From Thiemannella venezuelensis (lineage in GTDB: Bacteria > Actinomycetota > Actinomycetes > Streptosporangiales > Streptosporangiaceae): DNA of 64,000 nucleotides. Position numbers and translations under genes: made by a program. The DNA lies in the NCBI RefSeq assembly GCF_014203605.1, contig NZ_JACHJJ010000015.1, positions 62,001 through 126,000 on the forward strand, in the 5' to 3' direction. The notes below the pieces were generated by a model, which saw only the letters and a list, made by a program, of their open reading frames with translations, did not search any database and was not told the origin of the DNA. Positions 42,137 to 46,011 of this stretch are shown in pieces (the first letter of the stretch is position 1; each line of letters begins with the position of its first letter).

Positions 42137-44098
42137 TCACCCGGCGCTGTAGTGCAGCACGATCCCGTCGATCGCGGCGGCGGGCCCGTCGGCGAGGACG
42201 CGCACGGCGTCGCCCGCGAGATCGAGCATCACCACCTCCTTGCGCTTCCCCTTCGGCCTGACGGCGATGAGGTTCCGCTCGCCCAGCCGGCCCGCGAAGG
42301 AGGTCCCCCTCGCGATCGGCACCCTGGCCCTCCTCTCGCCGGTGACGTAGTCCCACAGGCAGACGTCGCCCGATCCACCGGGGCACATCGTGGTGATCAC
42401 CGTGCCCGCCGGGCTGGGCGCGGCGTCGTCGGAGGTCGCCTCGCCGACCGAGCGCAGCGTGCGGACGAGCGTGCCGTCCAGGTTCCTGACCTGCACCGCT
42501 CCGCCGGGCGCCCGGTGGATCACGGTGGTCCCGCCGGGTCCCCAGGCGTACGGATGGGGGCCTTCGCCGTCGTCGGCGACCCGGATGAGGTGCGCGCGGT
42601 GCGAGGCCGCGTCCACGATCACGAAGCCGACGTCCCGCCCGGGCTCGTCCCATCCCACGGTCTCCAGGACGGTGAGCAGCACCCGGGAGCCGTCGGGCGA
42701 CCAGTGCGGGAAGCGGGTCTGCTCCGGCCGCCCGACCGTCCGGACCGTGGTCTCCCGCCCGGTGCCGCGATCGACGATCCGGATCCGGTCGAAGTCGGAG
42801 AAGTCGGCCTTGATCTCCGGATTGATCGCGACGTACGAGCCGCCGGGGGAGACGACGGCGTGATGCCGCCCGGCGACCTCCTCGAAGGCGTCCCCGCCGG
42901 CGGTCCTGACGTGCGAGGGCCCCCAGGCCGGGTACTCCCGGTTGTCCTGGTAGGAGGTGACCCGCCAGGAATCCCGGGGGTCCTCCCGCAGGGTGATCCC
43001 GGTCCCGGGGATCCGCACCGAGGCCGTCGTCCCGGGGGCCATCGTCCCCGGGGAGCCCTGCCGCGCCGCGGGGCCGGCCGTGCTCCGGGGTGCGGCGGCC
43101 GGCTGCTCCTCCGCCCGCGCAAGGTGGAGGCCGAGCCCGGAGGCGATCGCGAGCGACACGGCGGCGAGCCCGGCCGCCGCCCGGCGACGGGCGGAAGGCG
43201 TACCGCCGCCGGCCCGGGGAGGGAGCGTGTCCTCTTCCCGGAGGCCGGCGTGCCCTCCGGCCCGGGCGTGGCCCTCGGCCGGCAGCGACCGCGGCGGCAC
43301 GGGATGGCCGAGCAGCCGGAGCAGCGCGTCCGTGGCGGTCGGCCGTGCGGCGGGATCCTTGGCCAGGCACTCCAGGACCAGTTCCCGCAGCTGCCCGTCC
43401 AGCGTGCCCAGCTCCGGCTCGCGGTGCAGGATCCGGTGGATCAGCGCGGGCACCGGACCCGTCCCGAACGGGGGCGCCCCGGTCGCCGCGCAGGTCACCG
43501 TGGCCGCCCAGGCGAACAGGTCGGCGGGCGCCCCGCTCCCCGTCCCGCCGAACTGCTCGGGCGCCATGTACGGCGGGGTGCCGACGACGTGCTCGGCGGC
43601 CGCGGCGGCGGAGTCCGCCGTCTGGGCGATCCCGAAGTCGATCACCCGGGGACCGTCCCTGGGCAGCAGCACGTTGGCGGGCTTGAAGTCCCGGTGGACC
43701 ACACCCGCCTGGTGGATGGCGGACAGCGCGGTCAAGGTGCCGATCGCCAGTCTGCGCAGCTCGGCTCCCCGCAGCGCGCCGCGCTCGGAGATCACCCGGG
43801 CGAGGGTGGGGCCGTCGACGTACTCGCTCACGATGTACGGCGCGCCGTCGAAGTCGCCGTGCTCCAGCACCTGCGCCGTGCAGAACGCCTTCACCCGCAG
43901 GGCCAGCTCGATCTCCCGGTCGAACTCGGCCGCGCTCGGACCGCGGGCGCCCGAGCGCAGCAGCTTGACCGCGACCGGCTCCCCGGAGGGGGAGACGGCG
44001 AGGTAGACCACGCCCTGCCCGCCCGCGCCGAGCCTGCCGGTGATCCGGTAGGCGCCGATCCGCCCGGGGTCGCCGGCCGCGGGCGGTTCGGCCGGCAT
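42137..44098 (-). CDS. Transmembrane Ser/Thr protein kinase with outside beta-propeller-like sensor
   Basis: 653 residues from ATG 44098. Kinase domain 15-~275 with all key residues: glycine loop LGAGGQGVVY (23-32), Lys45 (VAVKLL), HRDFKPAN (Asp137, Asn142), DFG (Asp154) and GTPPYMAPEQ. A membrane helix (about 310-330) follows and then an outside domain of ~300 residues with blade-like repeats (VVSPGGSYVAINPE, PHWSPDGSRVLLTVL, APSPAGTVITTMCPG), a TolB/WD-type propeller. It overlaps by one base (TGATG) with the upstream pseudokinase gene, which has the same layout. It probably reads an outside signal and phosphorylates cytoplasmic targets, perhaps together with its partner. Confidence 0.92.
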   Translation of the reverse strand: MPAEPPAAGDPGRIGAYRITGRLGAGGQGVVYLAVSPSGEPVAVKLLRSGARGPSAAEFDREIELALRVKAFCTAQVLEHGDFDGAPYIVSEYVDGPTLARVISERGALRGAELRRLAIGTLTALSAIHQAGVVHRDFKPANVLLPRDGPRVIDFGIAQTADSAAAAAEHVVGTPPYMAPEQFGGTGSGAPADLFAWAATVTCAATGAPPFGTGPVPALIHRILHREPELGTLDGQLRELVLECLAKDPAARPTATDALLRLLGHPVPPRSLPAEGHARAGGHAGLREEDTLPPRAGGGTPSARRRAAAGLAAVSLAIASGLGLHLARAEEQPAAAPRSTAGPAARQGSPGTMAPGTTASVRIPGTGITLREDPRDSWRVTSYQDNREYPAWGPSHVRTAGGDAFEEVAGRHHAVVSPGGSYVAINPEIKADFSDFDRIRIVDRGTGRETTVRTVGRPEQTRFPHWSPDGSRVLLTVLETVGWDEPGRDVGFVIVDAASHRAHLIRVADDGEGPHPYAWGPGGTTVIHRAPGGAVQVRNLDGTLVRTLRSVGEATSDDAAPSPAGTVITTMCPGGSGDVCLWDYVTGERRARVPIARGTSFAGRLGERNLIAVRPKGKRKEVVMLDLAGDAVRVLADGPAAAIDGIVLHYSAG

Positions 44099-46011
44099 CA
44101 GGAGGCCCGCCTGCGGGTGAAGCTCAGGACCGCCCTGTCCTCCCCGCCCTCGATCTCGGCGAGCACCCGGTGCGTGCCGCCGACGAAGTCGATCACCTGG
44201 ACCTGGCGCTTCTTCCCGACGCGCTTCTTCACCAGCAGGTGGTTCTCGTTGAACCAGCCGACGAGCTCCGTTATGCCGGCGCCGGGGACGGTGTGGCGGC
44301 GGTTGCCGGTCACCGTGTCCCACACGCAGATGTCCCGCCCCCGGGGGCAGACGGTGGAGAAGAGCTTCCCGGAGGGGGAGAACCAGTCCGTTCCCCGGGG
44401 GTCGCCGACCCAGTGCATGGTCCGGACGATCTGCCCCTGGAGGTTGTAGAAGTCGGCGCCGGACTTCTCGCCGTCGAAGTAGCGGCGGGCCACCGATCCG
44501 TCGGGGGCGAAGGTGAAGGGATTGGACTCGTCGCCCACCACCTCCGTCACCACGAGCGTGGACTTCCGCGCGGCCACGTCCACGACCACGAAGCCGCCGA
44601 TCACCTTCTTGTCCGGCTGGTGGACCGAGAGCAGCACCTTGGAGCCGTCCGCCGACCACACCGGGACGAAGGTCTGGAAGGGCTTGCGCACCGTCGGCAC
44701 GGTGAAGGTCTCGCCGGTCGCGACTTCGGTGATCTTCAGGTAGTCGGTGTCCGACTGGTTGAACTTCAGGAAGGGGTTGAGCGCCACCCGCTCCTGGTCC
44801 GGGGAGAGGACCGGCGCCATCCCGTGGTCCACCGTGCGGAAGGCGTGTCCGCCCCTCTCCCTGGCGAAGGTGGTGAACGGTTTCCCGACCACGGTGTAGG
44901 CGCCGAGCCCGGCCGGGTCCTGCGGGTGTTCGCGCAGGGTGACGCCGACGTCGGGGAGGACGACCTCCTCGGAGGTCTTCTCCACCTCCTCCAGCGGGGA
45001 GAGCACGGTCTCCGGGCCGCTCGCGGCGGGCGAGGCGGAGGGGAGCGGTTCTCCCGCCGGGGCCGCGGAGGCGGTCGCGGCGGCCGAGACGGCGGGAGCG
45101 GGAGCGGCGAGGGACGTGGCGAGGTACACCGAGCCCCCGGAGAGCAGGGCGATCGCCGCCGCGCCCGCGCCGAGGAGCAGCGGCCGGCTCCGCCGCGCCG
45201 GACGGCCGGCGGACGGCGGCGGGCCGAGGTCGGAGGTGAGCAGCTCGCCGACCAGTTTGAGCAGGACGTCGCTCGCGGCGGGGCGGGCTTCCGGCTCCTT
45301 GGCCAGGCAGGCGGCCACGACGCCGTGCAGGTCGTCGGGGAGCGCGCTCAGATCGGGGTCGCCGTGCAGGATGCGGTTGACGGTCCCGGCCATCGACCCG
45401 GCGTCGAAGGGAGAGCGGCCGGTCGCGGCGAACGCCAGGGTCGCGGCCCAGGCGAACAGGTCCGCCGGGGGCGCGGGGGCGGCCCCCCGGAGCAGTTCGG
45501 GGGCGGTGAAGGCCGGGACGCCGACCCGGCGGGTGTCGGTGTCGGCGGCGGCCGCGATCGCCCGGGCCACCCCGAAATTGATCACCCGCGGCCCGTCGGG
45601 GCCCAGGACCACGTTGTCCGGCCGGACGTCGCCGTGGACCGTCCCCGCCTGGTGGATGGCGACCAGCGCCGTCATGGTGCCGACCGCGAGCCGGTGCAGC
45701 ACGGCCTCCCGCAGCGTGCCCCCGGAGGCGACCGCCTCCTCGAGCGTGGGGCCGTCGATGTACTCGCTCACGATGTACGGCCGGCCGTCCGCCACCCCGC
45801 TGTCCAGGACCTCGGCGGTGCAGAACGCCGACACCTCCCGCAGCGGCGCGACGGAGGCGAGGACCTGCTCCCGGTCGAGACCCGCCGGCAGCAGCCGGAC
45901 GACGACCCGGTTCCCGGAGGGGGAGCGCGCCAGGTAGACCGCCTCCCCGAGCCTCGCGGCGATCTCGTACCCGTCCACGCGGCCGGGATCACCCGGACCG
46001 ATCTCCGGCAT
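44098..46011 (-). CDS. Transmembrane pseudokinase with outside beta-propeller-like sensor
   Basis: 637 residues from ATG 46011, with GGGGGGAG upstream. It has the same order as the gene it precedes: kinase fold (13-~265), membrane helix (~280-300), outside propeller-like part (LSPDQERVALNPF, PVWSADGSKVLLSVH, FTFAPDGSVARRY). But the kinase part has lost every catalytic feature: the glycine loop is shortened to LGEAVYLA, the ATP lysine is Arg39, HRD reads H126-G127-D128, the loop lysine is Arg130 and DFG reads N145-F-G. It cannot be a normal kinase. Coupling to the active kinase suggests that it is its allosteric or receptor partner. Some pseudokinases still bind nucleotide; this is open. Confidence 0.88.
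   Translation of the reverse strand: MPEIGPGDPGRVDGYEIAARLGEAVYLARSPSGNRVVVRLLPAGLDREQVLASVAPLREVSAFCTAEVLDSGVADGRPYIVSEYIDGPTLEEAVASGGTLREAVLHRLAVGTMTALVAIHQAGTVHGDVRPDNVVLGPDGPRVINFGVARAIAAAADTDTRRVGVPAFTAPELLRGAAPAPPADLFAWAATLAFAATGRSPFDAGSMAGTVNRILHGDPDLSALPDDLHGVVAACLAKEPEARPAASDVLLKLVGELLTSDLGPPPSAGRPARRSRPLLLGAGAAAIALLSGGSVYLATSLAAPAPAVSAAATASAAPAGEPLPSASPAASGPETVLSPLEEVEKTSEEVVLPDVGVTLREHPQDPAGLGAYTVVGKPFTTFARERGGHAFRTVDHGMAPVLSPDQERVALNPFLKFNQSDTDYLKITEVATGETFTVPTVRKPFQTFVPVWSADGSKVLLSVHQPDKKVIGGFVVVDVAARKSTLVVTEVVGDESNPFTFAPDGSVARRYFDGEKSGADFYNLQGQIVRTMHWVGDPRGTDWFSPSGKLFSTVCPRGRDICVWDTVTGNRRHTVPGAGITELVGWFNENHLLVKKRVGKKRQVQVIDFVGGTHRVLAEIEGGEDRAVLSFTRRRAS

Follow-up and report, generated by a model that had tools for sequence, protein, structure and literature searches.

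Adjacent genes for a predicted transmembrane pseudokinase and an active Ser/Thr kinase as a candidate two-subunit receptor in Streptosporangiaceae

The stretch of Thiemannella venezuelensis DNA analyzed here (the window: 64,000 nt of assembly GCF_014203605.1, contig NZ_JACHJJ010000015.1, positions 62,001–126,000 of the forward strand) carries on its minus strand two overlapping genes, of which the first encodes a transmembrane protein identified from its residues as a pseudokinase and the second a transmembrane Ser/Thr kinase, both with a propeller-like outer domain. Together the two proteins probably make up one membrane receptor: the pseudokinase would perceive the signal and exert allosteric control on the downstream kinase, the sole enzyme. 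The upstream gene (44098..46011, ATG at 46011, stop 44100–44098) encodes 637 amino acids and the downstream gene (42137..44098, ATG at 44098, stop at 42137) 653 amino acids. At their junction, TGATG (44098..44100), base 44098 is common to the upstream stop codon and the downstream ATG, and both open reading frames and the one-base overlap are thus as given in the initial annotation of this DNA. The purine-rich GGGGGGAG lies five bases 5' of the ATG of the upstream gene. Long open frames on the opposite strand of the locus were read as a by-product of the high G+C content and not as genes.

Both proteins have the fold of a Hanks-type Ser/Thr kinase, as had been suggested: the Pfam model Pkinase matched both above its cut-off of 31.7 (upstream 76.3 bits, 3.3e-21; downstream 136.1 bits, 2e-39), and the AlphaFold2 models include a kinase domain in each. 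In the upstream domain (residues 11–262, 45226..45981, delimited by Pfam, alignment and model) the glycine loop is gone, the segment RLGEAVY being four residues shorter than the corresponding RLGAGGQGVVY of the downstream protein. Furthermore, Arg39 stands in place of the beta-3 Lys, Gly127 of the HRD Arg, Arg130 of the catalytic-loop Lys and Asn145 of the DFG Asp, and the residue numbers of these losses given in the initial annotation were exact. Also the alpha-C Glu and the Thr of the P+1 loop are missing, which had not been noted earlier, while HRD Asp128, the catalytic-loop Asn133, the APE Glu and the alpha-F Asp are retained. The downstream kinase domain (43298..44056) is intact, as claimed, with GxGxxG, VAVK, the alpha-C Glu, HRDFKPAN, DFG and APE all present. 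When a pseudokinase is defined, following PMC12599244, by the loss of at least one of the beta-3 Lys, HRD Asp and DFG Asp (the triad), the upstream protein is a pseudokinase on sequence grounds by virtue of Arg39 and Asn145.

The best-scoring NCBIfam model for both proteins was the AfsK-type NF053615, with the match ending within or just past the kinase domain (residues 7–261 upstream and 9–375 downstream). Identity with the AfsK equivalog was rejected, the scores of 149.3 and 177.5 bits being far below the curated cut-off of 1300. Also the PADLOC matches PD-T4-6 and mad6 spanned the kinase domain or the kinase domain with the linker, and were not accepted as a defence assignment.

The single-chain AlphaFold2 models were built from 42 (upstream) and 41 (downstream) aligned sequences and reached mean pLDDT values of 82.2 and 80.9. 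The modelled upstream kinase domain is bilobal and aligns with PknA, RAF and Src-type kinases (Z ~27), its tied top matches including the autoinhibited CRAF complex, the Src-like inactive Abl and PknA; the top structural matches of the downstream kinase domain, at a similar Z, were PknB and PknA. One membrane helix and a propeller-like outside domain had been proposed for both proteins, and the models agree in showing a linker helix followed by a mostly-strand outer domain in each. The helix covers residues 283–297 upstream (45121..45165; predicted from the model and the sequence) and 312–321 downstream, in both cases within a low-confidence stretch. The upstream linker (residues 261–338, below pLDDT 50) is long and contains Ser and Thr. 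The outer domains span residues 348–633 upstream (44113..44970) and 359–652 downstream (42143..43024), and the approximately 24 strands modelled with high confidence in the former would fit a six-bladed propeller. A comparison of 28 outer domains with Pfam gave weak PD40, THOC3 and WD40-type matches and no PQQ model among those listed, and NCBIfam gave a weak TolB-propeller match. Among the matches listed by the structure searches there were kinase domains only and no outer-domain fold family; MviN and YukC were not among these matches either, which does not count as counter-evidence. A pair of Cys residues in the outer domain is present in 42 out of 42 proteins of both the upstream and the downstream type, and the upstream protein carries basic residues ahead of its membrane helix, on the kinase side. 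Both features agree with the expected extracellular position of the outer domain.

The outer domain was chosen as the probe for related loci because the kinase domain would have drawn in many other kinases. It was detected in 104 of the 297 genomes drawn from the same family, representing 20 of the 68 genera. In a draw of 297 genomes from the order, the outer-domain profile matched 112; all 112 belong to the same family, as do the listed non-matching genomes, and this draw, with eight candidates scored per genome, says little about other families and may have missed matches. From the phylum, one genome of 396 matched, that of the window itself (six candidates scored per genome, with most of the kinship not listed and matches possibly missed). 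Within the limits of the order and phylum draws, no occurrence of the outer domain outside the family came to light. The named relatives include Nonomuraea, Herbidospora, Streptosporangium, Acrocarpospora, Sphaerisporangium, Planobispora, Microtetraspora and others, and the two that were looked up belong to Streptosporangiaceae.

The gene arrangement was surveyed in 100 fetched regions around listed matches, a subset of all matching places, all from genomes of the same family and including a second pair of the window genome (L046). The pair of the window served as a reference and is outside the counts, as is a further triple in genome G225. The survey yielded 43 pairs and 21 triples of the order pseudokinase, pseudokinase, kinase (L073–L078, L080–L088, L132–L136 and L138), of which L075 and L135 are cut by a contig end; the second pseudokinase of the triples is often the most degenerate. 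Co-conservation of the two partners is thereby strong. The 1:1 arrangement put forward in the initial annotation applies to the 43 pairs and fails in 21 of the 64 cassettes, where two pseudokinases accompany one kinase. Some regions were assigned by hand: L038 as a pair, L039 and L143 (both in genome G068, at contig ends) as one upstream and one last gene, and L089 and L090 as upstream genes only, while L150, L148 and two flanking open reading frames in L040 and L041, in which no kinase was found, were dropped. The loci found later from named relatives overlap heavily with the earlier ones and were not added; they repeated the pattern with the exception of L185, described below.

The state of the triad follows the position of the gene. 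It is intact in 65 of 65 last-gene kinases and in 29 of 31 solo kinases with the same outer domain, and in one of 89 upstream kinases, so that 88 of the 89 upstream relatives are pseudokinases by the definition above (Fisher test ~3e-43 for position against triad state, a description only, as the loci are related). The beta-3 Lys is retained in 23, the HRD Asp in 43, the DFG Asp in 23 and the alpha-C Glu in seven of the 89 upstream kinases, the glycine loop is changed or deleted in most, and all eight examined positions are changed in 21. The same positions had been expected to be degenerate in all upstream partners, which did not hold: the catalytic-loop Lys is the one residue missing from all 89. 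None of the 89 is, on the other hand, fully intact in its catalytic residues. The structural residues are largely kept upstream, the alpha-F Asp in 88, Arg280 in 87 and the APE Glu in 75 of the 89. In the last-gene kinases the loop Lys, loop Asn and alpha-C Glu are present in 65 of 65 and the HRD Arg in 55 of 65, and the loop Lys is intact in 28 of the 31 solo kinases. The motif calls in the most degenerate genes of the triples depend on the alignment.

The genes of a cassette are closely spaced. The nearest in-frame downstream start was at −4 in 16 junctions, at −1 in 16 and at +1 to +7 in 27 (14 of these at +6); at 11 junctions no start was identified, and the remainder were long overlaps in which the true start is uncertain. 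No family of flanking open reading frames was shared by more than six of the 25 loci compared, local synteny being found among the close relatives of the window. With no conserved neighbours, the surroundings give no lead to the signal or the substrates.

Some regions hold related genes of other kinds. Outer domains standing alone, with no kinase detected, occur as three in tandem at L150:4266-7024 and singly at L148:6161-7120 and, in the genome of the window, at G000:C2:150629-151579. At L137 (the same locus as L177, Nonomuraea deserti) a single gene combines a pseudokinase-like N-lobe (no glycine loop, VVIR) with an intact C-lobe (HRDFKPGN, DFG); by its outer domain it falls among the last-gene type, and the gene looks like a pair fused by a deletion. 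L139 is a solo kinase with IGFG. The upstream gene at L038:4353-6346 lies in two frames, one with the kinase part and the other with the outer part, reflecting either a frame break or a sequencing error.

A base rate for catalytic loss was obtained from the genome of the window. A search with the upstream protein as query, which very divergent kinases may escape, gave 55 matches; all were fetched, and they contained 52 distinct kinase domains covering at least 180 model positions. The triad is kept in 50 of the 52. The two domains without it belong to the upstream gene of the window pair and to its counterpart in the second, paralogous pair on contig C18 (G000:C18:127389-131230), which has the same gene order and in which the DFG Asp is kept and the catalytic-loop Asn lost (HGDVRPET). 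The catalytic-loop Lys is absent in four of the 50 triad-keeping domains (HRDINPGN, HRDITPGN, HRDVTAEN and LRDLTPNN). The matches of this genome include 11 tandem kinase sets, and the nine besides the two pairs keep the triad on both sides. Tandem position alone therefore does not explain the catalytic loss, and it was rejected as the cause of the decay.

A quick tree was constructed of 162 outer domains, remaining from 182 after thinning; its deep forks are weakly supported and it gives no count of independent origins. The upstream, last and solo genes cluster apart in this tree, and each position of the triples forms a cluster of its own. Six classes (pair-upstream, pair-last, first and second triple-upstream, triple-last and solo) require seven changes, compared to a minimum of five and to 98 with shuffled labels, and the active versus pseudokinase state requires six. 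The pair-upstream genes are found in three places: a main cluster of 34, a cluster of seven mildly degenerate genes beside the first triple-upstream genes, and L079 alone.

Across 42 pairs, the distances among the upstream genes correlate with those among their downstream partners (matrix r 0.80–0.87), and none of 2000 permutations gave a value as high. Of the five genomes with two pairs that were examined, G111 and G280 show identical nearest relatives on the upstream and downstream sides of both pairs. In G044 and G087 the relatives on the two sides come from one subclade, and the two pairs of G028 are for the most part closest to each other. One dead and one live partner are genetically coupled and diverge together. 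As co-divergence is expected of linked genes, it shows dedicated units and not binding.

In three comparisons the dN/dS of the pseudokinase domain was 0.10, 0.10 and 0.04 with YN00 and 0.49, 0.51 and 0.38 with NG86, and that of the active kinase domain 0.03–0.06 and 0.22–0.39, respectively. The gap between the methods is assumed to be due to strong codon bias. All values from either method are below 1, with somewhat weaker constraint on the pseudokinase than on the kinase. Judging from these substitutions, the pseudokinase looks to be under selection.

The activation segment was compared in an upstream alignment of the window protein and 41 of 42 listed relatives of the pair type (L079 omitted) and a downstream alignment of the window protein and 40 of 42 relatives (L079 and L033 omitted). 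A regular-expression anchor was found in 22 of 36 pair-type and in 4 of 22 and 4 of 23 triple upstream genes, and was replaced by alignment columns. Position 160 of the upstream protein (codon 45532..45534) is Thr in 42 out of 42 aligned pair-type proteins; the next residue is Arg in 41, and the P+1 Thr is left in three. The matching site of the 41 aligned downstream kinases has no conserved Ser or Thr (E in 10, D in 10, S in eight and G in eight), and their GTPPxMAPEQ is almost unchanged. In pair-type cassettes the invariant phosphorylatable residue before the P+1 loop thus sits in the dead partner. In the toggle proposed for the plant receptor pair EFR/BAK1 (PMC11259431), the co-receptor phosphorylates the activation loop of EFR, which then acts without catalysis. 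By analogy, the invariant Thr160 would fit a toggle of this kind, and it would fit a phospho-scaffold equally well.

The proposed receptor is built on the gene order and spacing, the residue loss, the predicted folds, the signs of selection, the co-divergence and the invariant Thr. Each subunit would consist of a cytoplasmic Hanks-type kinase fold, one membrane helix and a propeller-like domain outside the cell. The upstream propeller, together with that of the partner, would receive the signal, and the pseudokinase domain would dock on the active domain and set its conformation, so that the downstream subunit would be the only enzyme and the upstream subunit would be freed from catalysis. In a likely refinement, the active partner would phosphorylate Thr160 of the pseudokinase, and the pseudokinase would then stabilise the kinase in its active state. 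The three-gene cassettes of some genera would provide a further pseudokinase subunit that differs from the first. For physical contact, the signal, the direction of control and phosphorylation, this is a scheme that we infer; by analogy, activation would be favoured over inhibition. That the cassettes represent a bacterial class of hetero-oligomeric receptors, in which one or two pseudokinase subunits sense and switch a single active Ser/Thr kinase, with trans-phosphorylation of the Thr included, as an independently evolved counterpart of the HER3/HER2 and EFR/BAK1 types, is an evenly balanced possibility.

Several observations weigh against the receptor proposal. The sampled loci are related, and the counts overstate their independence; linked genes inherited together co-diverge also without contact. 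The outer domain evolved more slowly in the pseudokinase in 540 of 561 main-clade comparisons, but in only 14 of 20 disjoint pairs (one tie omitted). The upstream gene of L067, one of a clade of seven only mildly degenerate loci (L066–L072), keeps the triad, but its HRDFNPGS has lost the loop Lys and Asn, and its glycine loop is changed. With the full triad in this gene and the HRD Asp in 43 of the 89, some upstream proteins may have kept weak activity. L089 and L090 carry two adjacent pseudokinases and no active third gene; their genomes hold canonical solo kinases of the same kind elsewhere. L185 (Microtetraspora sp. NBRC 16547) is a tandem of two canonical solo-type kinases. Finally, two of the nine other tandem sets of the window genome hold a kinase without the loop Lys (HRDINPGN and HRDVTAEN), and that loss alone is not specific to the cassettes.

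The same anatomy and conservation would be expected if the pseudokinase were an inhibitor that holds the kinase off until a signal releases it, in the way that the JH2 domain of the JAK kinases holds the active kinase domain off. The autoinhibited CRAF and inactive Abl structures among the tied top matches of the model give a weak hint in this direction. Activation and inhibition cannot be told apart from the sequence data, which contain nothing specific against an inhibitor, but L089 and L090 would leave it with no neighbouring kinase partner, and an inhibitory role is considered unlikely, though it is the most plausible of the alternatives. Slightly less plausible still is a pseudokinase serving mainly as a substrate or scaffold, which the neighbouring kinase would phosphorylate and whose phosphate would recruit a downstream protein. 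The invariant Thr160 and the long linker with its Ser and Thr residues would suit such a role, and a precedent is found in mycobacteria, where MviN is phosphorylated by a kinase and recruits FhaA, as described in the 2025 review PMC12599244. A pure substrate, however, has no obvious need of an outer sensor domain of its own, about as conserved as that of the kinase, nor of a whole conserved kinase fold.

Another enzymatic activity or a weak kinase activity of the upstream protein, such as nucleotide transfer by another route as in the SelO-type pseudokinases, draws on the HRD Asp kept in 43 and the DFG Asp kept in 23 of the 89 upstream genes. It is made improbable by the changed or deleted glycine loop of most of them and by the loss of the alpha-C Glu in 82 and of the loop Lys in all 89, with the eight examined positions all changed in 21. 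Neutral decay of a redundant tandem copy might be thought of in a genome with 11 tandem kinase sets, but it is barely credible, as both methods put the dN/dS of the pseudokinase domain below 1 in each of the three comparisons, the frames are open across the 42 aligned upstream genes (L038 being in two frames, and frame breaks not having been searched for systematically), and the upstream genes have conserved motifs of their own, HGDxRP and TRxV, and form deep clusters in the tree.

Among known systems, HER3/HER2 and the JH2/JH1 domains of JAK are eukaryotic tyrosine kinases in which an active kinase is under the control of a pseudokinase from its own family. The gene arrangement of EFR/BAK1 is said to differ from that of the bacterial pair, and Kwon and colleagues have reportedly surveyed pseudokinases across the tree of life. 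According to PMC11259431, EFR/BAK1 resembles the proposed receptor in being a pair of membrane receptor kinases in which a non-catalytic kinase domain raises the activity of the partner, with activation-loop phosphorylation in the proposed toggle. It differs in consisting of eukaryotic leucine-rich-repeat receptors and in that EFR itself is an active kinase; in the bacterial pair the interaction is a prediction. In bacteria, DivL/CckA of Caulobacter provides a pseudokinase acting as a sensor that controls an active kinase, but it has the histidine-kinase fold, exerts control via a response regulator and is no homologous gene pair of the Hanks fold (PMC5361649). The claim that such a pair is not described for bacteria stands for Hanks-type kinases in the literature searched, and does not extend to kinases of the histidine-kinase fold. 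The literature searches, judged mostly by title and the start of the abstract, did not find a bacterial Hanks-type pseudokinase–kinase pair.

The bacterial Ser/Thr pseudokinases are divided into seven families in PMC12599244, which calls their functions unknown and largely unexplored experimentally, discusses MviN and EssB/YukC, and gives operon contexts for a few members. MviN (ActPs3) and EssB/YukC are likewise membrane-associated Hanks-type pseudokinases with non-catalytic roles, but the text covered from that review does not report them as encoded next to a homologous active kinase. It mentions no homologous active neighbour, and the review lacks the words heterodimer, tandem, neighbor and propeller. 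ActPs1, ActPs2 and DYD are, according to the same text, mostly or partly actinobacterial and share features with the window protein: the change of the beta-3 Lys to Arg (ActPs2 and DYD), the loss of the alpha-C Glu (DYD) and a membrane region after the kinase domain (ActPs2 and the membrane-associated DYD). They differ in that no active partner gene is described there for them. The upstream protein could not be assigned to any of the three. ActPs1, many but not all members of which have a C-terminal PQQ domain according to that text, requires the substitution of all three catalytic residues, while HRD Asp128 is kept in the window protein and the HRD Asp in 43 of 89 upstream relatives. ActPs2 requires HRD Asp changed to Asn, a DFG deletion and a long activation-loop insertion, and the window protein has HGD, NFG and no long insertion; DYD requires that motif in place of DFG, where the window protein has NFG.

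The control of a live kinase by a pseudokinase is a known kind of system, and the bacterial Ser/Thr receptor cassette is undescribed in the literature searched. In these cassettes the genome itself names the likely partner of the pseudokinase, with 64 related cassettes and with live solo relatives as a control, and the mode of action of bacterial Hanks-type pseudokinases becomes testable with two purified proteins. If the proposal is true, bacteria too would have evolved live kinases governed by a catalytically dead sibling receptor, as in some animal and plant receptors.

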